DNA of 32,104 nucleotides from Turneriella parva (GTDB lineage: Bacteria; Spirochaetota; Leptospiria; Turneriellales; Turneriellaceae), in the NCBI GenBank assembly GCA_020719945.1, contig DYPL01000027.1:1-32104 (forward strand), read 5' to 3'. Position numbers and translations under genes: made by a program. Numbering within the stretch: the stretch's first letter is position 1; each line of letters starts with the position of its first letter. The notes beneath the pieces are model-generated. The model was not told where the DNA came from. It did no database searches and saw only the letters and a list, made by a program, of their open reading frames with translations. Of this stretch, positions 2,950 through 25,198 are shown one piece after another.

Positions 2950-3165
2950 ATGTTTGGCATGGGAATTCAGGAACTGGTCGTCCTTTTTTTAATACTGCTT
3001 CTTGTGTTTGGTGGGAAAAAACTTCCCCAGCTCGCCCGTGGCATTGGCCAGGGAATCAATGAATTCCGCAAGGGAATTTCCGGGGCCCCGCCAGAAGAAG
3101 AGCAACACCAGCAGATGAGCGAGCCCCAGGAACCCGTTAAAAAAAGCCGCAGCAAAAAAACCTAA
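2950..3165 (+). CDS. tatA: Twin-arginine translocase subunit TatA
   Basis: A 71-residue TatA/E-type protein that oligomerises to form the pore for folded twin-arginine substrates in the inner membrane. Visible: a short N-terminal membrane helix (residues about 5-21, IQELVVLFLILLLVFG), the hallmark hinge FGGKKLPQLARGIGQ and an amphipathic helix to about residue 43 (INEFRKGIS), then a charged tail ending KKSRSKKT. Length is typical. The stop is one base from the tatC ATG, so the two are co-translated. No tatB-like gene is present; many non-proteobacterial systems use one bifunctional TatA with TatC. Confidence 0.92.
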   Translation: MFGMGIQELVVLFLILLLVFGGKKLPQLARGIGQGINEFRKGISGAPPEEEQHQQMSEPQEPVKKSRSKKT

Positions 3166-3166
3166 C

Positions 3167-4033
3167 ATGGCGCATGCTCCCCAAAAAAGTCTGCCCGAAG
3201 AATCTACTCCGGATGATTATATACGCCAGTTGAGACAAAAACAGGGGTATATGCCGGTCACGGATCATCTGGAAGAGCTCCGCTTTGTTATTCTGCGCGG
3301 TATTCTGTATGTCCTCCTCCTTTCTGTTTTTGCCTGGTTTGCCTATGAGCAGGTATACAACTTTGTCATGGGACCTCTTTTGCCTCTGATTGCCAAATCG
3401 AGGGAAGCAGGCAATATTGACATTCGGATTGTTACCAACCAGCTCGGTGATTATTTTCTTATTAAAATGAATCTTGTCATGGTTGCCGCGCTCGTGGTAT
3501 CTGTGCCCATTCTCATGTTTGAACTCTGGCGTTTTATTATGCCGGCCATCGATAAAAAATTCAGGAATTCCGGACCTCTGCTTATTGCTGCTACTGCAGC
3601 TCTTTTTTGGACGGGAGTCTATGTGAGTCGCGCGTTTATCTGGCCTACCATCGTGTATTTTCTCGTTTTCCAGTGGGTGCCGCCTTCGCTGTCTGTGCCA
3701 GGGTCGGATATTGCCCTTCGCCCGGAGTTATACCTTTCCGTTGGGGATTATTTGTCTTTTTTCTTTTTGTTCCATGCTATATTTGGTCTTTCGTTTGAAA
3801 TGCCGATCGTTGCTTTTATTCTTGCAGCAGCCGGGCTCATCAACAGACAAAATTATTTCGCACACTGGCGCATGATAGTTGCAGGCCTTTCGATTGCTTC
3901 TGCCGCGTTAACTCCGGCAGATGTATTTTCTATGCTTGCCGTCCTTGTTCCTCTTGTCATTTTGTACTTTTTATCAGGACTGATCGTAATTCTGGTCGAT
4001 AAAAAGAAAGGTACAACGGCAGATGAAAACTGA
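3167..4033 (+). CDS. tatC: Twin-arginine translocase subunit TatC
   Basis: A 288-residue six-helix membrane protein, the receptor for twin-arginine signal peptides. Family hallmarks: HLEELR (residues 34-39) before TM1, FELWRFIMPAI (about 118-128) at the TM2/periplasmic junction, the W-x-G-x-Y segment of TM3 (about 149-156), and FGLSFEMPIV before TM5. The N-terminal cytoplasmic extension (about 33 residues) is slightly long. The 3' end overlaps the next gene by 11 bases, implying a three-gene tat operon. Confidence 0.93.
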   Translation: MAHAPQKSLPEESTPDDYIRQLRQKQGYMPVTDHLEELRFVILRGILYVLLLSVFAWFAYEQVYNFVMGPLLPLIAKSREAGNIDIRIVTNQLGDYFLIKMNLVMVAALVVSVPILMFELWRFIMPAIDKKFRNSGPLLIAATAALFWTGVYVSRAFIWPTIVYFLVFQWVPPSLSVPGSDIALRPELYLSVGDYLSFFFLFHAIFGLSFEMPIVAFILAAAGLINRQNYFAHWRMIVAGLSIASAALTPADVFSMLAVLVPLVILYFLSGLIVILVDKKKGTTADEN

Positions 4034-5381
4034 AACAAGATCCGCTCTCGCACTTCCGGCTGCTCTGCTTGCGCTGGTGCCTTCTCTGCTCATTGCAGCC
4101 TGGTCGCATATGGCTTTGCTCAGGGACAGCCATAGAGAAACGGCAGCACTGTCGGCCACTTTGTTGAAAACATTTGCGCGAGGCTTTGCGCATTCTGCTG
4201 GCACCCCTGCAGAATTCAGAGCCATTTTAACGGAAGGATCTCTGTTTTTGTTTTGGGATTCTAAGGGCAATATTTTATCGCACAGTGACGCCAAAATTGA
4301 AGCAGAAATAAACAAAAGAAGGGCAGAAAAGGATTATAACGATGCAGTTCTTAAATTTATAGAAGACGAAATCGGGAGCATTAAAGCCAATAAAAAACTG
4401 CTTCGAAAGGGAGCTTTTTTGGATGTCGATAAAGAGGGGCATCGGTATTATATGTATTTGTCTTATGGTAAACCGCAGGGCAAACTCATTAAACGAATCA
4501 TCAGCCTCTATGTTATTGCTGCAATCTTTTCTCTTATTGTGTATATAATTGTATGGTTTGTAGCGGGTCGCGTGACGCGACAAATTGGTGAACTCACGTA
4601 CGACATTCAAACCGGGGATATTCGAAGCAGTGAGCGCTTTGCAGAGCTAAACCTGCTGGCCAGTCGCCTTTTCGAAAAACTTAGGGGAAACGAGGAAACA
4701 AGAACTTCTGAAAAACTGCCGGGTATAGAGACATTGTATCGCCGTCCTGTGCAGCGCATTCGAACCTTTGACATCTCGTTTTATCCTTCGCGTCCTAAAG
4801 GAAAAAAACACGACTGCTTGGCCGCCAGTGAAACCGACGCTTCTCTCGATGCATTTTTTCTCCGCTTTGGCATGCGCGTACCCGAGGATATACTTCTGGA
4901 GAACCGATACCAGGAACGTTTTTTTTCTTTTTCAGAGGCAAGACAAAAACCAGCGATGATAGCGCATTCTTTTACAGAAGATTTGCTGCAGTATCCGGGA
5001 AAGGAACCATCGCTTTTGTACTTTCGCTGGGACTCTGAGGATTCCACTCTAAAGCTTTTGCGTTCTGGAGGATATCTTATCCATAAGATCCATTCGTCGG
5101 GAGTAGAGGAAATTGAATCTGGTTCTCTCGTGTTTTCTTCGAATGCTGAAGCAGAGACAGTACCTCTTTCATTGCAGGATTATGTTGTTGTTACATCCAC
5201 GGATTTGCCTGAGTCCATTGGTCTTTCGCTCGATGAGTATAGAAAAATAATTTCTCACATACCCGCAGAAAACCGTGCATCTAACACTCTGCGCTCCTTG
5301 TTGAGAGCTCTGTACGATGCAGCACCAACAAAAGAGGCTTATCCCTCTGGTGCTTTGTTTATTGCGGGAACCAAGAGCTGA
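4023..5381 (+). CDS. Two-TM sensor-like protein with degenerate PPM/SpoIIE-type phosphatase domain
   Basis: A 452-residue membrane protein. Layout: TM1 (residues 9-30), an extracytoplasmic domain (about 31-158, containing FLFWDSKGNILSHS like a small Cache/PAS sensor), TM2 (159-182), a HAMP-like linker (about 183-225), then a C-terminal domain (about 245-449). The C-terminal domain follows the order of SpoIIE/PP2C phosphatases: FDISFYPSRP, then LLYFRWDSEDSTLKLLRSGG, then LQDYVVVTSTDLPES, then a terminal GALFIAGT strand. The metal-binding acids appear lost: the usual GGDYYD is replaced by KKHDCL and the TDG of the late motif is TDL. I infer a pseudophosphatase or scaffold. The ATG lies inside tatC (11-base overlap), so it is co-expressed with Tat. 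The 3' end overlaps convergent ribF by 23 bases. Confidence 0.65.
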   Translation: MKTETRSALALPAALLALVPSLLIAAWSHMALLRDSHRETAALSATLLKTFARGFAHSAGTPAEFRAILTEGSLFLFWDSKGNILSHSDAKIEAEINKRRAEKDYNDAVLKFIEDEIGSIKANKKLLRKGAFLDVDKEGHRYYMYLSYGKPQGKLIKRIISLYVIAAIFSLIVYIIVWFVAGRVTRQIGELTYDIQTGDIRSSERFAELNLLASRLFEKLRGNEETRTSEKLPGIETLYRRPVQRIRTFDISFYPSRPKGKKHDCLAASETDASLDAFFLRFGMRVPEDILLENRYQERFFSFSEARQKPAMIAHSFTEDLLQYPGKEPSLLYFRWDSEDSTLKLLRSGGYLIHKIHSSGVEEIESGSLVFSSNAEAETVPLSLQDYVVVTSTDLPESIGLSLDEYRKIISHIPAENRASNTLRSLLRALYDAAPTKEAYPSGALFIAGTKS

Positions 5382-6297
5382 AAAGCTCGCGGGCATTTCG
5401 CACATCTTCCGTAATTCTCGCTTTCAGTGCATCTACGTTTTCAAACTTTTGTTCGTCGCGAAGTCGCCATAACAGTTCAACGCGCAGTGGCTCACCGTAC
5501 AAGTTTTCTGATATATCGAGAATGTGGGCTTCTAAAGATAAATCTATATTGTTAAATGTAGGATTAAAACCAATATTGAAAACCGCTTTTTCACGCCGTT
5601 TTCCTATAAAAGCATGACCGGCATAAACACCTTCGCGGGGAAGTATTTTATCGGGATTGATATGGAGATTGGCCGTGGGCGTACCGAGCAGACGGCCTCG
5701 CTGGTTTCCATGAATGACCGTACCGCTGACAAAAAAAGGCCGCCCGAGCATGGCATTAGCTTTTTCAATTTCTCCGGCTTTGAGAGACAGGCGGATCGCA
5801 GAAGAAGAGATTGCTTCTCCGTTGTGGAGAACGCGCGGAAGTTCTTCCGTCGTAAAATGGTATTTTGTCGCAGCGTTTTGAAGATACCTGAAATTTCCGC
5901 GTCGATTTTTTCCAAAGTGGTGATCGTATCCCAGAATAATATGGCGCGCCTGTAGTTTTTTCAGTAGAATTTCTTGTAGAAATGTTTTGGCACTCACATT
6001 GAGCAGCCGCTCTTCGAAGGGAATAAAGACGACAGCATCAAGATTATATTCCTGGAGAAGAAAAATCTTTTCGCTTTTTGTATAGATTTGTTCATCAAAG
6101 CGGCGTTTGCCAAGAAGCATTTTGGGAGATGGGTGGTAAGTGACGAGCAGAGAGGCAGAATCCATTTCCCGTGCCCGCCGGATGGAATGTTCCAGGAGCG
6201 AACGATGGCCGAGATGAAATCCGTCAAAGTCACCCAGCGTAATGACGCCGGGTTTTCCTTTCCATTCCAGATTTTCGATGTCTGAAATGATGATCAT
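5359..6297 (-). CDS. ribF: Bifunctional riboflavin kinase / FAD synthetase RibF
   Basis: A 312-residue cytoplasmic enzyme that phosphorylates riboflavin to FMN and adenylates FMN to FAD. The N-terminal adenylyltransferase has GDFDGFHLGH (residues 22-31, the H-x-G-H nucleotide motif), ILGYDHHFGKNRRGN and the ISSSAIR turn. The C-terminal kinase domain shows RGRLLGTPTANL, EGVYAG, FNIGFNPTF and LEAHILD with the family's catalytic Glu. Length matches the usual 300-315. Its ATG overlaps the stop of the upstream permease by four bases (ATGA), so the two are translationally coupled, though permease and RibF have no obvious joint role. Confidence 0.93.
   Translation of the reverse strand: MIIISDIENLEWKGKPGVITLGDFDGFHLGHRSLLEHSIRRAREMDSASLLVTYHPSPKMLLGKRRFDEQIYTKSEKIFLLQEYNLDAVVFIPFEERLLNVSAKTFLQEILLKKLQARHIILGYDHHFGKNRRGNFRYLQNAATKYHFTTEELPRVLHNGEAISSSAIRLSLKAGEIEKANAMLGRPFFVSGTVIHGNQRGRLLGTPTANLHINPDKILPREGVYAGHAFIGKRREKAVFNIGFNPTFNNIDLSLEAHILDISENLYGEPLRVELLWRLRDEQKFENVDALKARITEDVRNARELFSSWFPQ
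5375..5388. terminator. Small hairpin at a convergent gene junction
   Basis: GAGCT-GAAA-AGCTC, a perfect 5-bp stem with a GNRA tetraloop, spans the stop of the rightward gene and lies inside ribF's last codons. No T-run follows on either strand, so any termination would be weak. Confidence 0.25.
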
Positions 6298-7901
6298 TTC
6301 TCTGCTTCTGTGCGGCTGAACGCTGCCATTACCAGAATGGCGGCAGCCGACAGTAAATAGGCTGCAGAAAAGTGATACGGGATATTGCTGCCGACGGGCA
6401 AACTCCAGGGCAGATAAATTTCTCCCGTAGAAGTCGCAGAATGAATGACTCCAAAAAACGCGAAAATGCCTCCCGTGGCAAGAGCGACTACGGCATGTCT
6501 GGCTTTTCCATCGGCAAGATACGCTGCTGTTGCTCCCCAGATCATGGCTGTGAGAATATAGCCCTGTCCCATTGCTTCCAGTATTTTGTACTGTCCGTGA
6601 AAAAAAGGAGGAATAACGGCAGAAAGCTCGGTCTGTAAAGACGAATATTTTTGTCCCAGAGACTGAATTGCTCCCATAACTGGTTCGTACAGTCCTTTTA
6701 CCTGTATATAGCCATAATTGAGTATCGCAGGGATAATAGAAAATGTGACGGCCATGGAATGTTTTTCGCCAGACGCAGAGTAGGCAAGAGAAGCAATCTC
6801 AAACCCAATAAAAATGAGAATAGGGGCAACCGCAACTTCCGGGATTAAATGGACGAGAAATTCAATGATGCCCAGGTAAGCACCCAGGCCGATCAGGATA
6901 CCGGTGAGAAGAGTGTATCCCGCTCTTGCTCCCATTTTTTTATACGCGGAATGGCCAATGTACGCAGTCGATTGGGCGACGCCGCCAAAGAGACCACCGA
7001 TTAGAGTGGCCAGGGAATCTGTGAGAAGTATAGTGCGCGTATTGTAGTCATCCCCCACGATGCGGGCACCCTGTGTTACATTGATGCCCCCGATTATGGT
7101 GAGCAAACCAAACGGAATCGCTATGGGCAGGTAGCGAAGTGCATCTCCCATAAAAACCGAAAAAACACCGAGAGGCAGAGAAGGGAGGGATGGCGTGGCA
7201 GATAGATGGATGGGTTGACTCACGATGCCTGGAATTCCCAGCAGCATGCCGGCATAGTACACGATTGCGCCCAGTAGAACGGCTGCCGCAGCTCCCGGAA
7301 ATTTTGCGGGCAGGCGATACGGTGACATGAGAGTGAGCAGAACGACAGAAAGGGAAATGAGACCCACGCTTGGATTTCCCATCAGGCGGAAAAACTGATA
7401 CGCGGCCAGCCAGACAACTCCGACTCCGGCCAGGGAACCAATCAGTGCAGCCGTTGGGACAATTCTTTGAATGGCATTTCCAAAGAAAGATGAAATAAAT
7501 TTAACGAGAGCCATCCAGAGTACAACGGATACACCAATATACCACGCCATGATGGCTCCCTGTTCTGCGCCGAGATTCGCTTTGTAATGCAGAAAGGCGG
7601 GGCCAATAACAGCAAAGGCAATGCCGATGGTAGAGGGAGTATCGAGTCCGAGTGGAATAGCTGTGATAGTGTCTTTTCCCGTTCTTTTGGCCAGACGAAA
7701 TGCGAGCCAGGTAAAAAGGAGGTCTCCCACCATGACGCCAAGCGCAGTGCCTGGAATCATTTTTTGGGTAATGATATGGCCGGGAAACCCAAAAACCATA
7801 GTGAGAATTCCGTAGAAAGTGACGAGATTTACCAGATTGTCAAGAAAAAGGGCAAAAAAACCATTAGCGTCTCCGGAAGAGAACAGAGAATAGCGTCGCA
7901 T
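6294..7901 (-). CDS. NCS2/AzgA-like nucleobase permease
   Basis: A 535-residue inner-membrane transporter with 12-14 hydrophobic segments, resembling nucleobase:cation symporters (xanthine/uracil or AzgA hypoxanthine-guanine types). Visible signatures: an early VNLVTFYGILTMVFGFP helix, DTITAIPLGLDTPS (substrate half-helix region), IGGINVTQGARIVGDDYNTR and the conserved LFGGVAQSTAYIGHSAYKKMGAR loop, then FIGFEIAS. Substrate cannot be assigned. It is longer than typical NCS2 proteins (430-480), partly from a hydrophobic C-terminal extension. First gene of a two-gene leftward unit with ribF. Confidence 0.72.
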   Translation of the reverse strand: MRRYSLFSSGDANGFFALFLDNLVNLVTFYGILTMVFGFPGHIITQKMIPGTALGVMVGDLLFTWLAFRLAKRTGKDTITAIPLGLDTPSTIGIAFAVIGPAFLHYKANLGAEQGAIMAWYIGVSVVLWMALVKFISSFFGNAIQRIVPTAALIGSLAGVGVVWLAAYQFFRLMGNPSVGLISLSVVLLTLMSPYRLPAKFPGAAAAVLLGAIVYYAGMLLGIPGIVSQPIHLSATPSLPSLPLGVFSVFMGDALRYLPIAIPFGLLTIIGGINVTQGARIVGDDYNTRTILLTDSLATLIGGLFGGVAQSTAYIGHSAYKKMGARAGYTLLTGILIGLGAYLGIIEFLVHLIPEVAVAPILIFIGFEIASLAYSASGEKHSMAVTFSIIPAILNYGYIQVKGLYEPVMGAIQSLGQKYSSLQTELSAVIPPFFHGQYKILEAMGQGYILTAMIWGATAAYLADGKARHAVVALATGGIFAFFGVIHSATSTGEIYLPWSLPVGSNIPYHFSAAYLLSAAAILVMAAFSRTEAEK

Positions 7902-8086: not shown

Positions 8087-9067
8087 ATGTCCCCGTCAGT
8101 GAAAAAAATTACGGAAGAAGCTCTTCGATTTCGCCAGCAAACGTTATCGGGAGCTTCCCGCATAATCATCGGGTACGGGGATATTCTCGATCTCATTCTT
8201 GTGTCTGCCATTTCGGGCGGACATATTTTGCTCACAGGTCTTCCGGGCCTCGGCAAGACTCTCCTCGTAAAAACTTTATCCCGACTCTGGGACCTTTCGT
8301 TTCGCCGCATCCAGTTTACTCCCGATCTCATGCCGGCGGATATTTCCGGTACCGAAATCCTGCAGGAAAAAACAACTACGCGGGGGTCGTCGCGTTTTCT
8401 CGAATTTGTTCCCGGTCCCGTATTTGCCAATCTTGTTCTGGCAGATGAAATTAATCGAACGCCACCGCGAACCCAGAGTGCATTGTTGCAGGCAATGGAA
8501 GAAAGACAGGTGAGCGTAGCAAACCACACGCACACTCTTCCGCAACCTTTTCTTGTGATGGCAACCCAGAACCCTCTGGATCTGGAGGGGACGTATCCTC
8601 TTCCTGAAGCCCAGCTCGACCGTTTTCTCTTGTCTCTGGAATTATCGTATCCATCGCGCGAAGCAGAAATCCAGATTGCCAAAATGAGCATGGGTGGGCA
8701 TGATCTGCTTGAATCGCTGCAACCCATAGCCCATGCCGACACTATTCTTCAGTTACAGAAATCGGCAGACAAAGTTGCCATGCCGGACTCTCTTTTGTCT
8801 GCGATTGTAGACGCAGTGCGCTCAACCAGACCGGGCAGTGCAGGAGCAGACATGGTGCTCTATGGTGCCGGACCGCGTTCCGTTCAGTTTCTTGTGCGTG
8901 CGGCGAGGGCAAGGGCATTGCTTACCGGCAGGCCAGGCGTCTCCGAAGAAGAAATTGCATTTGTGTTTCCGTATATTTTAAGACATAGAATTCAATTGAA
9001 ATACGAAGCCGAAGCAGAAGGAATTTCGGTCGACGACATGCTGCACCGCATCAATCCGTTCGCGTGA
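8087..9067 (+). CDS. MoxR-family AAA+ ATPase
   Basis: A 326-residue AAA+ ATPase of the MoxR group, chaperone-like enzymes that act with VWA/DUF58 partners in metal insertion or complex maturation. Walker A is GLPGLGKT (residues 51-58), Walker B LVLADEINR (116-124), sensor 1 MATQNP (158-163), then EGTYPLPEAQLDRF, the MoxR lid signature. No membrane segment. The ATG is three bases after the tiny basic gene; the stop overlaps the DUF58 start by four bases, the classic moxR-DUF58 pairing. Physiological client unknown. Confidence 0.9.
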   Translation: MSPSVKKITEEALRFRQQTLSGASRIIIGYGDILDLILVSAISGGHILLTGLPGLGKTLLVKTLSRLWDLSFRRIQFTPDLMPADISGTEILQEKTTTRGSSRFLEFVPGPVFANLVLADEINRTPPRTQSALLQAMEERQVSVANHTHTLPQPFLVMATQNPLDLEGTYPLPEAQLDRFLLSLELSYPSREAEIQIAKMSMGGHDLLESLQPIAHADTILQLQKSADKVAMPDSLLSAIVDAVRSTRPGSAGADMVLYGAGPRSVQFLVRAARARALLTGRPGVSEEEIAFVFPYILRHRIQLKYEAEAEGISVDDMLHRINPFA

Positions 9068-9804
9068 ATCCTCCCTCTCGACTCATTCCATTTTTATCGG
9101 GAAGACGCATTTATTTTCAGCATCCCGGAGAGAAAACCATGGGAGAGCATGTCAGCCTTCGCCCCGGTCAAACGGGAGAAAAATGGGATGCAAGGCCGTA
9201 CTCTCCAGGTGATGATCTTCGTTACGTAAACTGGAAGCTATCGGCCCGCAGGCAGAAGCTCTGGCTGTATGCCAACCGGGAAAATCCATCGCATTTTATT
9301 TACGCCGGGTTTGATGGTAGTGCTTCGCTCCGTTCGGTAGAAGGTAAAGAACAAGCCGGCAAAACCATTCATGCTTCGCTCGTTTATCTTTTCAAAAACC
9401 AGAGGGACAAAGTGGAAGACAGGGAAAGTGGAGATTTTTTGCCATTTGCTTTGTCGCTGAAGCCTGGCCGCAGATTTCGCCATGCCTTTTGGACAGGAGA
9501 TTTATACATTGAAAAGGAAGCGTTTCGCTCTGCCTGTAAAAGCCTGGCACAAAAAAAAATCATCCTCCATTTCATTCACATAGAAAAAAAATCGGAGCAT
9601 AAGCTTCCCGCCACGAATACGTGGCGCGACTCCGAGACAGGCCTTTTGTTGCGAAGGATGAACGTTTCGGGAGAAGAAATTTATGAAAAAGGGATTCGCG
9701 AGCGAAGAGCAATTCTGGCCAGTTATGGCCACCAGTATCTGCCCGTCGATGCAGATAACCCGGTGGAAGTATTTCTGTATCGTATTACAGGAGTCTCCCG
9801 TTGA
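9064..9804 (+). CDS. DUF58-domain protein (VWA-like MoxR partner)
   Basis: A 246-residue soluble protein starting at GTG that overlaps moxR's stop (GTGA); with no Shine-Dalgarno visible, translation is probably coupled. The DUF58 signature RPYSPGDDLRYVNWKLSAR is at residues 44-62. The following strand carries an intact VWA metal-site triad D84-x-S86-x-S88 (FDGSAS). It lacks the N-terminal membrane helices of longer DUF58 proteins. The family typically works with MoxR ATPases and Bat-type VWA proteins, as here. Confidence 0.85.
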   Translation: MNPPSRLIPFLSGRRIYFQHPGEKTMGEHVSLRPGQTGEKWDARPYSPGDDLRYVNWKLSARRQKLWLYANRENPSHFIYAGFDGSASLRSVEGKEQAGKTIHASLVYLFKNQRDKVEDRESGDFLPFALSLKPGRRFRHAFWTGDLYIEKEAFRSACKSLAQKKIILHFIHIEKKSEHKLPATNTWRDSETGLLLRRMNVSGEEIYEKGIRERRAILASYGHQYLPVDADNPVEVFLYRITGVSR

Positions 9805-11180
9805 ATTTTCTGTTTCCGTGGTATCTGCTTTCTGCCGTGGCCATTGCCATTCCGTTGTTGCTCTATTTTTTTTACCGAAAGCAGGGGAGGCAGGGACAAA
9901 TTCCTTCTTCAATTTTTTTGCGCGAATACGGTAAGAACTTTCAAATATTTCAGTCTTCTCTTTGGCTCCTACTTCTGGAAATTCTGTTCATTTTATTTTT
10001 AGCAATAGCCATTGGCGTTCCGGGAGCTCAAAGCAATAACTCTTTGTGCATTATCGACGACAATCCCTATACGGATGGGATTCGTCAGCGAAAGGATTTC
10101 CAGGAAGCCGTAAAGCAGTGTCGCAGAAAACCAGTGCGACTCAGCTATCTCGCTGCCGGCATCTGGGAAAGTTCTCCCGATCTGCCAGCCCTTGCGCACA
10201 ATCGCTCAACCCACGATATTCTATCATCCTCCCTGCGGGGAGTTACTTCCTCCAAGCTGTTTTTGACGGTGCCAGGCGGCATTCCTCGGGAGTGGCAGCG
10301 GGGAATGCCCCCGGGATTCAGGGCCATTGCCATAGAAGGAAGCGAACCCGTGTTAATTCGACGTGCGGCCCTTGTGCCAAATCCACTCGATAGAAATGTT
10401 TTTTTTCTGGAGTATTCTCTGAGTCAACCCCATGCAGCTACGCTGCTTCGCCGGGAAGGTGAAACGGTATTGCCGCGCGGGATCACAGTTAGTATTCCTT
10501 TTTCCGTTTCTGGAATCGAGCCGGTGGTTTTCCGTGCGGGAACGGATTCTGTGCATTTTAAGGTTGTGCCCGGTCAAAAACGCCTCGTGCGCCTTCTGAC
10601 AAATGCTCCTCGATCTGTTGCGAGTCTTCTCGCAGCTGCCGGAGTGGATTCGCGGATTGGCGTTGCTGAGGTTGGCATTCCTGTTGGCTATGGCCCATGC
10701 TCTGGCAGAATAGGCTTTCTGCGCGGCACAGAGCCAGAGGTTCTGCAAATGGGAGAGAAGAATATTGCAATTCCCGTGAAGGCGGCGTTTTGTGACGGAA
10801 AACCTTTGTTTCATTTTCGCAGTGGGAATCCCGCCGTAACGTGGCACGAGAACCTTCCCTGTTTCTGTTTTGATCCGGATTCCGCGCCGGAATACTATCG
10901 ACTGCATCCGGTGTTTGCCCTGTGGATGTATGGAATGCTTTCTGCAGGAGCAGCGCCCGAACCGCACAAACAGTTGCATGGCCCTCCGGGTTTTTATTTG
11001 TCGGGTTCCCGCTCCGTGCAAATGCCTTCAGGAAATGATTTCGAGGTACTTAATTATGGGGAAGCCCAGAGAAATCCAGCCGGTCTTTTGCGTTCGCAGG
11101 AAAACTCTCTGGCTTCTTCTTTTCCCTGGCTGGCTGTATTTCTTTTGGGGGCAGCCCTCATGTTTGCCCTGCGCAGGTGA
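9801..11180 (+). CDS. BatA-like membrane protein with degenerate VWA metal site
   Basis: A 459-residue protein starting at TTG, which overlaps the DUF58 stop (TTGA); AGGAG at 9789-9793 gives a normal spacing of seven, so TTG is credible. The N-terminus (FLFPWYLLSAVAIAIPLLLYF) matches the aerotolerance-regulator/BatA N-terminal domain, with a second TM at about 52-72. The next strand reads SLCIIDDNPYTD where VWA proteins have D-x-S-x-S; here D86-D-N88-P-Y90, so metal binding is probably lost. A long extracytoplasmic beta-rich middle follows, and a C-terminal TM (about 441-457). Role in the MoxR module inferred from position. Confidence 0.7.
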   Translation: MNFLFPWYLLSAVAIAIPLLLYFFYRKQGRQGQIPSSIFLREYGKNFQIFQSSLWLLLLEILFILFLAIAIGVPGAQSNNSLCIIDDNPYTDGIRQRKDFQEAVKQCRRKPVRLSYLAAGIWESSPDLPALAHNRSTHDILSSSLRGVTSSKLFLTVPGGIPREWQRGMPPGFRAIAIEGSEPVLIRRAALVPNPLDRNVFFLEYSLSQPHAATLLRREGETVLPRGITVSIPFSVSGIEPVVFRAGTDSVHFKVVPGQKRLVRLLTNAPRSVASLLAAAGVDSRIGVAEVGIPVGYGPCSGRIGFLRGTEPEVLQMGEKNIAIPVKAAFCDGKPLFHFRSGNPAVTWHENLPCFCFDPDSAPEYYRLHPVFALWMYGMLSAGAAPEPHKQLHGPPGFYLSGSRSVQMPSGNDFEVLNYGEAQRNPAGLLRSQENSLASSFPWLAVFLLGAALMFALRR

Positions 11181-11192
11181 CGAAAATAGAGC

Positions 11193-12431
11193 ATGCTTGC
11201 AGATCAGCTTGTACAGGAATTCCGACACGCAAGAGAAGAGACAAATCGTTATAGTGTATTGAATTTTATGTACTTTGTAAAAGCGAAGTACATTAGAATT
11301 AATTTGATTTATTCCGGATATGTTTACAAAAGCGTTGTAGAGCACGTGACAGACAGGGGACTGGAAATTGAAGTTTCTCAGTTTCGCGAAACAACAGACA
11401 GGCGCATTATCATTACGTTGGAAGCTCTCAATCGCTATTATATTTTTGAAACAGTTCTGCTGGCGTTTTCCGGTGACATTGTAACGGCGCGCATACCGGA
11501 AGCTTTGCGCTTCCAGGCGCGCCGCCGGCATGCGCGCATTCGTTTTGACGATATGTTTTTGCGGTTTATAATTCTCTACTCTTCTATTCTCGATACGCGT
11601 GAAGAAGAAAAAGCAATGGAGAACCGCCACCCGCATTTTTTGCAGGAAGTCTTAAAAGATTCTCCTTCCTTAAATATTGTCTACCAGATGTTCACACGTG
11701 AAATTCAAAACATTACGCGCGATTTTTCTCTGCATATGTTTGAAAAAATACCAGAATCGGAGCGAAGTCCCGCCGAAAAAATTCTGGCAGAGACGGGCAT
11801 GCCTGTGCTCATTCAAGATACTGCTTTATTGAAATCGTACATTGAACCGATTTCTTCCCGAAAGGTGACAAACCTCCATTCGTATTTCGAAACTCTCAAA
11901 AACGAGGATGGAACATACGAGGCCCTGCGAAAAATGGAAGAGATCAAAAAGTCAGATTCCCGCCTGTTTCTCGTATCGTATCTGATGCTGCCCATTTCTG
12001 CTTACGGTATTCCCATTGGATATATTCGCCTTGAGACCAACCAATTCGATAAATATTATCTCTCTCTCTCGGCAGCCGAAGAGCTTGTGGTTCCGGCCAG
12101 TCTTTTCTCGTATGCGATTACCAAAATTCGGATTCGCAATTCGCATTTTGATCCGGGTTCTGTACAAACCCGTATTGTGAATTTATCCTTAACCGGACTG
12201 TTGATGGAAATGACGGATGAAACTCTCTACCATTATCTCCAGACCCACAGGCGAATCAAAATGATCATTCCCGTAAAAGGGGAAGAGGTAGAAGTCTTTG
12301 GAGAGATCATTCGTTATTTTGAAGAGGGAACCTATTATTACCTTGGCGTTTCGTTTTTCTCCTTTCGGCCCGGCGATATGATTCTTCTTGAGAATTATAT
12401 TTATGAAAGTCTCCACTATCAATTTTTTTAA
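11193..12431 (+). CDS. DUF1577-like PilZ-domain protein
   Basis: A 412-residue cytoplasmic protein resembling leptospiral DUF1577/PilZ proteins. N-terminal beta domain (about 25-105, YcgR-N-like), then FQARRRHARIRF containing R111-x-x-x-R115, the c-di-GMP-contacting arginine pair. An insert of about 200 residues follows (helical, then a GAF-like segment around 195-315), and then a C-terminal PilZ-like barrel with NLSLTG (330-335, matching N-x-S-x-x-G). Both halves of the c-di-GMP motif are present but far apart in sequence. AGGTGA over the preceding gene's stop is a distant ribosome-binding candidate. It sits between the MoxR module and gspK, suggesting a regulator of one or both; c-di-GMP binding is inference. 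Confidence 0.65.
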   Translation: MLADQLVQEFRHAREETNRYSVLNFMYFVKAKYIRINLIYSGYVYKSVVEHVTDRGLEIEVSQFRETTDRRIIITLEALNRYYIFETVLLAFSGDIVTARIPEALRFQARRRHARIRFDDMFLRFIILYSSILDTREEEKAMENRHPHFLQEVLKDSPSLNIVYQMFTREIQNITRDFSLHMFEKIPESERSPAEKILAETGMPVLIQDTALLKSYIEPISSRKVTNLHSYFETLKNEDGTYEALRKMEEIKKSDSRLFLVSYLMLPISAYGIPIGYIRLETNQFDKYYLSLSAAEELVVPASLFSYAITKIRIRNSHFDPGSVQTRIVNLSLTGLLMEMTDETLYHYLQTHRRIKMIIPVKGEEVEVFGEIIRYFEEGTYYYLGVSFFSFRPGDMILLENYIYESLHYQFF

Positions 12432-12466
12432 TTGTCTATGAGTTTCCTCTTTTCATTATCGCAGAG

Positions 12467-13522
12467 ATGAAGTTGTGGAAGAAATCCTCAAAAAAACTTC
12501 CTCCCGGAATCGAAAAAAAGGGAAGCGTTATTCTGGTGCTAACGGCAACGGTGCTTACTCTCACCTTTTCTGCTGTCCTCGTTCTCGTAAATATGTCTTT
12601 TCGGGAGTATAAATCTGCCATTCTCGAATCCAGAAATCTCCAGGCCAGGCTTCTTGCCCGCAGCGGTATAGAGGCATCCATTGCACTGCTCCAAAGAGTT
12701 TCTCCAGAAATTTTGTATCAGTTCGGCGCATTTTCCATGCCGTTTCCTATTGTATTGGGAAAAGGCGAAGTTCTTCTGAGCCTCTCGGAGGAAAGCGGCA
12801 AGCTTAATGTGAACAGGCTCGTCCATTTTTTCGATGACGAAGAAGATCTTCTCGTTCGCGAATGGTTCGAGAATCTTTCTGTCACGCTGGGAATTGATGG
12901 AGCTATCTGGGATGAAGTTACCGATTATATTGACGAAAATTCTGTGGCCATGCCTTCGGGACGGGAATACGCAGAAGAGGGGATGGTTCCCGTCAAGAAT
13001 GGACGCCTGCACGATATTCGCGAGCTGCTCCATCTCCCCGCCTTTAGTGCACCTCTTTTATACTCTCCGCTGATCGAGACAGTGGACGAAAGTTTGGATT
13101 TTGCTACAGAAGAAGAAAAACTTGCGCGCCAGACAGAGAGCTCCGTGCTTTCCGAGTTGCTCACGGTGTATTTGCCCGACAATCCCGGAGGCGCGGATTC
13201 CCATAAAATCAATGTCAATTCGGCGGGGTATACAGTACTCAGGTCTATCCATCCCGAAATGACCGACGACATAGCCCGCAACATTATCATATCGCGCATT
13301 AAGGCCGGCGGGCGATTTGACTCTCTGGACGATTTATCCGCTGTTCCCGGAATTCTCATCAATTCGGGGGGATTGCCTCTTCTCGATAAACTGAGGAGCC
13401 GCCTGCGCACCGGTGATTTAATCTATAAGATTGTTGCCGAAGCGAGGATAGATTCGCAACATGCCCATGCCATGGCCGTATTCGATCGCGAGGCTAAAAA
13501 AGTAACCGGGTATCTGGATTAA
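12467..13522 (+). CDS. gspK: Type II secretion minor pseudopilin GspK
   Basis: A 351-residue minor pseudopilin thought to cap the type II pseudopilus. Short basic leader ending KKG (residue 19), then the hydrophobic SVILVLTATVLTLTF helix without a Glu at +5, as usual in GspK. LSEESGKLNVN (about 106-116) is the family's D/E-x-x-G-K-x-N-x-N motif, and INVNSAGYTVL with two helix-hairpin-helix-like segments occupies the C-terminal part. Length is typical. Two bases separate it from gspL. Processing by prepilin peptidase GspO, not in this window, is expected. Confidence 0.9.
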   Translation: MKLWKKSSKKLPPGIEKKGSVILVLTATVLTLTFSAVLVLVNMSFREYKSAILESRNLQARLLARSGIEASIALLQRVSPEILYQFGAFSMPFPIVLGKGEVLLSLSEESGKLNVNRLVHFFDDEEDLLVREWFENLSVTLGIDGAIWDEVTDYIDENSVAMPSGREYAEEGMVPVKNGRLHDIRELLHLPAFSAPLLYSPLIETVDESLDFATEEEKLARQTESSVLSELLTVYLPDNPGGADSHKINVNSAGYTVLRSIHPEMTDDIARNIIISRIKAGGRFDSLDDLSAVPGILINSGGLPLLDKLRSRLRTGDLIYKIVAEARIDSQHAHAMAVFDREAKKVTGYLD

Positions 13523-23554: not shown

Positions 23555-25198
23555 TTATACCGAAGTCTCGCGTCCACCAAAGGGAAACTCCACTTTTACA
23601 CCATCAAATTTCTTTTGTGAAATAGTGACTATCGGTGTAAAATCCATGTCCGGGCCCTTGCTCTCCAGCTTGTGAATTTTTTCTTCTAACTGCTGAATAT
23701 AGGTATCCAAACGGGTCAGCTCCTGGAGAACGCGCAAAGCCGTTTCCTTTTTACCGCCTTCCATTTTTTCCAGAAAAGCTTTGGGATTGCGCAAAAACAC
23801 AGGAGAAAAAGCCTGACTCACTTTTGCCGTGATTGTTCCCCTGCGAACGAGAAGATTTTCTTTTTCCTTGCGCAGAGTATTCAGCTTTTCCTCGTGGTGA
23901 ATATCTGTTCCCGCAGAAAGAATGGTAACGGCTCCATCCTGGTTTCCCGCTACTTTAACAGAGACGGAATGAAACCCACTGGCGCGGCCTCCCACGATAA
24001 TCCCTTTTTTTTCCTGAATGATAATGTTGCCGTTGGAAACAAGCTGGGAGTTAAAAGAAAAATCCTGTACAATAATGTCCCCATCCGCTTTTAGATAGGC
24101 ATTGCGGGCATAGAGAGTTGTAATAGAGGAGCGGGATTCAATGCGGCTGTTCTCCCGGCCAATTACGCCGTTCTTGAAAATGACTGGACCAGAAGCAAAA
24201 ATACTTGCTCCGTCTACAACGCCAGAAACTGTGACGGTTCCAAAGCTGGAAATAGAGAATCCCGGCTGCACGGTTCCCTTAATTTCAATATTTCCAAAGA
24301 AATCAATGTTGCCAATACTGTAATCTACATCCTGGTTGATAACGAGAGTTTCGATTACATTAATTTCTTTAGGTTTTTCAGAGAAGTAACCATTGACTTT
24401 ACTAATGACAACGGATGTGTCTTCTGGATTTCGCTCAAGGCTGGCTCCCATTTTTGGGCCGAGTACCTTAAATTCAGATGGAATTTCTCCGCCGTAAACA
24501 TCAAGCCCATCTACTTTGGTTTGTGCTTCTATGTACACGCCTATGCGTTCGCCTTTTTGTACTTCGCGGATTGCTTGGCGTTCCTTAAAATCGATTCGGC
24601 CATCTTCGAGAATTTTTCCCGCTTTCATTTCTGACTTGATATCTGATTTGACATAATCGGGCCAGCCATCGCGGGCAGAATGTCCGCGCGAAATCAGAAT
24701 GCGGTCTTTTTTACCCGCGCGAACGAGAGCAATCTGCTCTTCAATTTCGCTGGCGGGAATTACAGGAATTAAATGTTCTGCTTTAATCACATAAAAAACA
24801 TCTTCTGCAGAAGGAAGGCGCTCGGTGGGCACTTTGGATAGATACAGCCACGCCTGGGTTTTTTCGCGGTTAACAATTACGGGGGGAATAACGACGAGAC
24901 GATTCCGGTAGAATCCTGCAAAGCCAAATACTTTTGCCCTGAAATCTTTCGCATGAGATTTATGAAGTACGGAAGCTTCATCGTACTCTATGGCGGTTGA
25001 TGGTTTCGTCAACAGTGGAACGGGATAGTTTTCTCTTTCATATCCTGAATCGGGTATTGCTTCTATGGCCAGAAGGTCTCCCGGTTTGCGGGCATTATCC
25101 GGTTCTGGAATGAACACTTTTAGCCCGTCCTCTTCCCATGCAGTATGAAAAGGTTTCTGGTTGGACAAGCGGATATAGTACCAGTTTTCCGAGGGCAT
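23555..25198 (-). CDS. FapA/DUF342-family polymer-forming protein
   Basis: A 547-residue cytoplasmic protein of the FapA (DUF342) family. The N-terminal part is mixed; the middle (about residues 255-430) is a run of short beta-helix turns with repeated N-G/I-x-G patterns (IGNIDFFGNIEIKGTVQPG, FGTVTVSGVVDGASIFASG, LKADGDIIVQDF). A C-terminal coiled coil (about 435-520, EKLNTLRKEKENLLVRRG, LEEKIHKLESKG) follows. No enzyme motif. The family is found in many bacteria, often near motility or envelope genes; the role is unclear. First gene of the coaD-lnt run. Confidence 0.85.
   Translation of the reverse strand: MPSENWYYIRLSNQKPFHTAWEEDGLKVFIPEPDNARKPGDLLAIEAIPDSGYERENYPVPLLTKPSTAIEYDEASVLHKSHAKDFRAKVFGFAGFYRNRLVVIPPVIVNREKTQAWLYLSKVPTERLPSAEDVFYVIKAEHLIPVIPASEIEEQIALVRAGKKDRILISRGHSARDGWPDYVKSDIKSEMKAGKILEDGRIDFKERQAIREVQKGERIGVYIEAQTKVDGLDVYGGEIPSEFKVLGPKMGASLERNPEDTSVVISKVNGYFSEKPKEINVIETLVINQDVDYSIGNIDFFGNIEIKGTVQPGFSISSFGTVTVSGVVDGASIFASGPVIFKNGVIGRENSRIESRSSITTLYARNAYLKADGDIIVQDFSFNSQLVSNGNIIIQEKKGIIVGGRASGFHSVSVKVAGNQDGAVTILSAGTDIHHEEKLNTLRKEKENLLVRRGTITAKVSQAFSPVFLRNPKAFLEKMEGGKKETALRVLQELTRLDTYIQQLEEKIHKLESKGPDMDFTPIVTISQKKFDGVKVEFPFGGRETSV

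Follow-up and report, generated by a model that had tools for sequence, protein, structure and literature searches.

A tatC-overlapping, RktP-related membrane protein of Turneriella with a probably inactive SpoIIE-type domain

Membrane sensors of the SiaA type have a sensor-HAMP-SpoIIE layout, in which the SpoIIE domain is an active output. The PPM fold of such domains is used for binding in TAB1 (2j4o, 2pop) and in the PP2C-like domain of RssB, both PPM-fold pseudophosphatases; both are cytosolic, and neither is known as a membrane sensor or a neighbour of tat genes. Closer to the locus studied here is RktP (NCBIfam TIGR04400), which likewise has a SpoIIE-like domain behind transmembrane (TM) segments, and whose gene overlaps or abuts tatC and is present in one copy per genome. 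For Leptospira this linkage to tat is already published; there, the neighbour of tatC is called a 'probable serine phosphatase', its role is left open (translocation, the regulation of translocation, or neither), and RK (Arg-Lys) Tat signals are already known for Leptospira (PMC4758666). The initial annotation of the Turneriella locus had held that a catalytically dead, sensor-like partner coupled to Tat would be unusual; the linkage of the genes has this precedent in Leptospira. Our literature search found nothing on the linkage in the order of Turneriella or on the loss of catalytic residues, and under the name RktP it returned only unrelated work. What we add is that the linkage reaches the order of Turneriella, in 9 genomes, and that the whole of this order has lost catalytic residues.

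The window, that is, the whole stretch of DNA analysed, comprises 32,104 nucleotides of Turneriella parva (contig DYPL01000027.1 of assembly GCA_020719945.1; the genome is G000 below). Its order is Turneriellales, and the related family referred to as f5 is probably Leptospiraceae. The features at issue are the following:

2950..3165, + strand: tatA (Pfam PF02416, E 2.1e-15)
3167..4033, + strand: tatC (Pfam PF00902, E 6.1e-43)
4023..4033, + strand: 11-bp overlap of the 3' end of tatC with the 5' end of the putative pseudophosphatase gene (ORF coordinates)
4023..5381, + strand: gene for a putative RktP-like membrane pseudophosphatase of 452 aa (the window protein), conserved in the order and in f5
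5359..6297, - strand: ribF (FAD synthetase/riboflavin kinase), convergent (Pfam; synteny)

The ORF coordinates agree with the initial description of a gene at 4023-5381 that overlaps tatC by 11 bases, and Pfam confirms both tatC and tatA. Quoted overlaps count the stop codon. The convergent ribF overlaps the end of the gene by 23 bp and, based on synteny, is retained next to it wherever the gene is tat-linked in the order. The gene occurs as a single copy in its genome, and a Pfam search with the window protein alone found no family at E<=1. We infer that the gene is co-transcribed with tatC, and it is probably translationally coupled to it as well.

The protein divides into a membrane-bound part and a C-terminal domain:

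4038..4121, + strand: TM1, residues about 6-33 (Kyte-Doolittle 19-residue windows >1.6; helix in the model)
4122..4481, + strand: predicted periplasmic sensor domain, residues about 34-153, with inferred topology (mixed helix/strand, modest pLDDT)
4482..4580, + strand: TM2, residues about 154-186 (hydropathy; helix in the model)
4581..4748, + strand: HAMP-like linker and low-confidence stretch, residues 187-242 (profile region common to HAMP proteins)
4749..5378, + strand: predicted SpoIIE/RsbU-type PPM-fold domain, residues 243-452 (AF2, Foldseek, VIA, hhalign)

The two TM segments, the predicted periplasmic domain and the HAMP-like linker support the earlier description of the protein as sensor-like. 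Pfam matches among 15 members were weak and confined to single members (HAMP in 1/15, E 0.038; sCache_3_2 in 1/15, E 0.039), with none in the window protein, and the N-terminal profile region matched HAMP-cyclases and one MCP. The layout is like that of SiaA-type sensors, from which the window protein differs in its degenerate output. Two copies in the order (G003, G013) and all copies in f5 are short, at 358-381 aa, and lack the periplasmic domain; thus, the degenerate domain was retained through changes on the input side.

Residues 243-452 are predicted to adopt a SpoIIE/RsbU-type PPM fold, in agreement with the order and strand pattern of SpoIIE/PP2C phosphatases that had been read from the sequence initially. 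AlphaFold2, run on the window protein with 10 sequences, gave a mean pLDDT of 74.7 and block means of 74-92 over residues 241-452, and a second model, of a homologue, had a pLDDT of 78.8. Structure prediction was the check proposed for the PPM fold at the outset, and both models matched it: Foldseek placed the RsbU domain of Rv1364c, RsbX, SpoIIE, RssB and SiaA among the best matches, with an E of 1.7e-8 for the RsbU domain of Rv1364c (3ke6_A). Alignment with VIA-align 2 gave Z 20.5 over 211 residues against 3ke6_A (rmsd 3.0), Z 18.2 over 201 residues against SpoIIE 5ucg_A (rmsd 3.1) and Z 18.2 over 215 residues against SiaA 6k4e_B (rmsd 3.9); structural matches to the pseudophosphatase-like TAB1 (2pop_A) and RssB (8t85) reached Z 13.1 and Z 12.6, respectively. 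In profile comparisons, the domain of the window protein is collinear over residues 243-432 with 17 SpoIIE paralogues from the same genome (hhalign, E 2e-4 in a single comparison), the family profile found SpoIIE among PDB sequences at 0.0043, and Pfam recognised SpoIIE in 2/15 members (best 0.0055), other matches being at chance level. PF07228 had no match in the window protein.

A search with the window protein in 100 genomes, its own included, gave matches at E<=0.01 in 17. One of these (G066, E 0.009) is an MCP-like protein by its translation and was dropped from all counts; the remaining 16 genomes belong to the window's genus, family and order. Among the 18 genomes of the order, 15 have full-length copies; G008 has a partial copy and G012 an N-terminal fragment, both cut off where the contig ends, and neither is included in the 23-sequence alignment used below. 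In 16/18 of these genomes there is a homologue that covers either most of the protein or its C-terminal domain, and the only one in which no homologue was found is G002, which is 54% complete. Searching the class with a 17-row alignment added f5 genomes, and a search of the 48 class genomes with one f5 protein found one copy in each of the 8/8 f5 genomes. Phylum-wide, the C-terminal domain alignment matched 82 of 392 genomes at E<=1e-4. Matches at E<=2.4e-54 were restricted to families f1-f5, and those from the next best (3.1e-14) onwards are taken as ordinary SpoIIE proteins. In family f6 (22 genomes) there were at most weak matches at the general SpoIIE level, and TatC is present in 21/22. 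Between the two closest genomes, G000 and G001, dN is 0.058 and dS 0.310 for the window-protein gene, against 0.032 and 0.234 for tatC; the gene is under purifying selection in this pair, the one tested. Together with the homologues across the order, these values indicate that the window protein is not a chance reading frame.

The metal-ligand positions were read from a joint sequence alignment in which the domains of 23 family members were combined with 17 active SpoIIE paralogues; the four positions are assigned to motifs 1, 2, 8 and 11 as in PP2C:

4812..4814, + strand: motif 1 ligand position, D264, kept (joint alignment)
4863..4865, + strand: ligand position of motif 2, R281 in place of Asp (joint alignment)
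5199..5201, + strand: ligand position of motif 8, T393 in place of Asp, followed by D394 (joint alignment)
5349..5351, + strand: ligand position of motif 11, G443 in place of Asp (joint alignment)

It had been proposed initially that the metal-binding acids are lost, with KKHDCL standing for GGDYYD and TDL for TDG. This stands for motifs 2, 8 and 11. It fails for motif 1, where the D of KKHDCL (D264) aligns under the D of GGD, so that this ligand is kept. The active paralogues have Asp at each of the four positions in 17/17 (68/68 cells). In the order (15 sequences) an acid is found at motif 1 in 10/15, at motif 2, whose register is the least certain of the four, in 0/15, at motif 8 in 1/15 and at motif 11 in 0/15, or 11/60 cells in all. 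The eight f5 sequences have one in 8/8, 0/8, 8/8 and 8/8, respectively (24/32). By these aligned counts the order looks degenerate and f5 intermediate. Compared with SpoIIE/RsbU-type PPM phosphatases (PF07228; 5ucg, 3ke6, SiaA 6k4e, RsbX 3w40), the window protein has the same predicted fold and collinear motifs and lacks three of the four metal ligands as well as a PF07228 match. The window protein very probably has no phosphatase activity, and the fold, the ligand positions and the conservation support the term pseudophosphatase-like, used at the outset, for it and its order. The 17 paralogues themselves (L064-L080, in a genome of 2.4 Mb) are SpoIIE proteins by PF07228 and have Asp at each of the four ligand positions; six of them (L075-L080) are without the usual YD after GGD and share a distinct form.

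The window protein is very probably a relative of RktP. TIGR04400 matches 9/23 C-terminal domains of the family (best 2.1e-47), and its curated cut-off of 200 bits is passed in the 48 class genomes only by G018 and G020, both f5 and both tat-linked; the window protein has no match to it at E<=0.1 and does not reach the cut-off. The order profile matches the f5 profile at E 1.9e-11 and the SpoIIE paralogues at 5.4e-5 (hhalign), and with hmmsearch it ranks 7/8 f5 proteins above all 17 paralogues, the protein of G019 falling below one. In the opposite direction, from the f5 profile to the order, the signal is weaker, with paralogues L065 and L066 outranking many members of the order; thus, orthology is not settled by sequence alone, and synteny does more. 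Based on the family profiles and the tatA-tatC synteny, the window protein is probably a divergent RktP orthologue. It differs from RktP in its extra periplasmic domain (452 aa against a model of 358 positions) and in the absence of the acids at motifs 8 and 11, which are retained in f5.

The gene was initially described as built into the tat operon, which is true here and in 11/23 genomes with a full-length copy (9 in the order, 2/8 in f5). The arrangement tatA-tatC-gene with convergent ribF is shared by nine genomes of the order (G000, G001, G003, G004, G006, G014-G017). In f5, the gene directly follows tatC in G020, where the two overlap by 4 bp, and in G018, where they overlap by 20 bp if the gene starts at a TTG and are 16 bp apart if it starts at the first ATG. 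The description does not extend to genus g5, where five full-length copies lie beside a PPDK-type gene, with a thioesterase gene on the other side where that flank is present and tatC elsewhere, nor to six f5 genomes in which the RktP-like gene stands behind a SAM methyltransferase gene (L139:5325-7201, L140, L141, L142, L143, L153), with overlaps of 4 bp in five and of 19 bp in G037 from the first start codon. The methyltransferase pair has no apparent Tat link. At the g5 locus L022:3005-7726 its two neighbours are a 905-aa PPDK-type gene and the thioesterase gene; tatC is on its own in this genus, with no tatA detected next to it. On a tree of the 23 copies, which has some long terminal branches and several unresolved forks, the neighbour changes at least two times by parsimony (22 copies labelled; the context of G013 could not be placed), which makes tat linkage the likely ancestral state. 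Co-occurrence with tatC, the other check named initially, is uninformative because TatC is found in 47/51 genomes searched.

Our reading of the locus as a whole, held tentatively and with slightly less than even confidence, is of an RktP-related two-TM sensor that has lost catalysis, is coupled to tatC and works by binding. The Turneriella branch keeps the protein and not the catalytic residues, which suggests that selection there is not for enzyme activity and directs attention to binding rather than to phosphatase activity. A non-catalytic, signal-responsive binding role is fairly probable; Tat as the target is possible, and a good deal more doubtful. The periplasmic domain would sense an envelope signal, which would shift the HAMP-like linker together with the helices at the start of the PPM domain, including the K-x-R-x-Q-E-x-F helix. 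This shift could alter how firmly the protein holds a partner in the cytoplasm or the membrane, the most plausible candidates being a component of Tat and something that has to be produced along with Tat. This helix (residues 293-300, read as E-x-R-x-Q-E-x-F in the window protein) follows the motif-2 loop, is among the best conserved C-terminal positions, and presumably lies near the site of SpoIIE's regulatory helices. A fuller scenario, which we consider unlikely, is that the tat operon gained a SpoIIE-type phosphatase in the common ancestor of the Leptospira and Turneriella lineages and that this protein, through stepwise loss of catalysis (three of the four acids remain on the RktP side, almost none in the order of Turneriella), became a transmembrane, non-enzymatic regulator linking an envelope signal to the Tat translocase. 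If this is true, the 'phosphatase' label of RktP needs revision and the protein would be an unusual dedicated Tat sensor. The RktP annotation may mislead.

The active site might instead be remodelled rather than dead, with displaced acids and the motif-1 acid binding a metal or ligand and perhaps supporting altered catalysis. Besides the motif-1 acid in two thirds of the order, an acid is found one residue after motif 8 in 13/15 members of the order (D394 in the window protein; 0/8 in f5) and two residues after motif 2 in 12/15 (5/8 in f5), and 0/17 active paralogues have acids at the two displaced positions; since most of the order has regained acids within 1-2 residues of these two motifs, a total loss of metal binding is not certain. 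The acids that f5 retains at motifs 1, 8 and 11 fit this idea as well. We nevertheless regard it as improbable, given that the motif 11 acid is absent throughout the order, the window protein has G at the displaced motif 2 position, and neither the TDG glycine nor the GH motif is retained.

Two further alternatives concern the connection to Tat. It could be that RktP-like proteins are required for the recognition of Arg-Lys Tat signals, as the NCBIfam name might suggest. Signals were read on one Tat-substrate protein, by one motif, in 45/48 class genomes (all but G013, G035 and G043). They are RK in 17/17 genomes read of the order and in 11/11 tat-linked genomes, and the seven f5 genomes read have 4 RK, 2 RR and 1 RS, the RR and RS signals all among the five with the gene off tat, much as such a requirement would have it. 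However, RK signals also occur in 14/21 f6 genomes read (with 6 RR and 1 RA), where the gene is absent, and in 6/6 g5 genomes, where it is unlinked, and RR signals coexist with the gene on other proteins in G005, G006 and G020. As RK signals exist in genomes without the gene, an RktP-like protein is not required for them; service to the RK signal was rejected on the f6 genomes, and we regard the requirement as very improbable. Less readily dismissed, and a real if minority possibility, is that the protein signals in a process with no connection to Tat, such as STAS/anti-sigma switching, in which it would be a non-catalytic partner, or another envelope response; its site behind tatC would then be historical and a matter of co-expression only. 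The gene is retained without tat linkage in g5 and in 6/8 f5 genomes, beside methyltransferase, PPDK and thioesterase genes that have no known Tat connection. Rate covariation in 21 genomes also shows no TatC-specific signal: the partial rank correlation of the gene with TatC given a control Tat substrate is 0.39, and with that substrate given TatC 0.52, computed on p-distances that are near saturation (Kimura-formula distances saturate). Against this, tat linkage is found on both sides of the deepest split in the tree, the genes overlapping or standing close together in either case, and there were no STAS/anti-sigma (partner-switching) genes among the neighbours scanned. For our reading of a tatC-coupled sensor that works by binding, the linked and unlinked genomes form a natural set for testing a role in Tat.

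Other features of this genome and window were noted. The RK-type Tat signal read in this genome is on an ActB-like oxidoreductase (L241; G000:C87:2500-3300), and its occurrence across the order extends the RK signal of Leptospira. Beside ribF, the window encodes a 535-aa membrane-like protein (6294-7901, - strand) with no Pfam match at E<=1, which is kept next to ribF in G001, G003, G015 and G017. Positions 8087-13522 contain genes of the MoxR-DUF58-BatA type and, after them, those for a DUF1577-PilZ protein and a T2SS K-like protein. A FapA protein is encoded at 23558-25198 (- strand), and in L139 the methyltransferase-RktP pair likewise has a FapA gene nearby (1126-2655).
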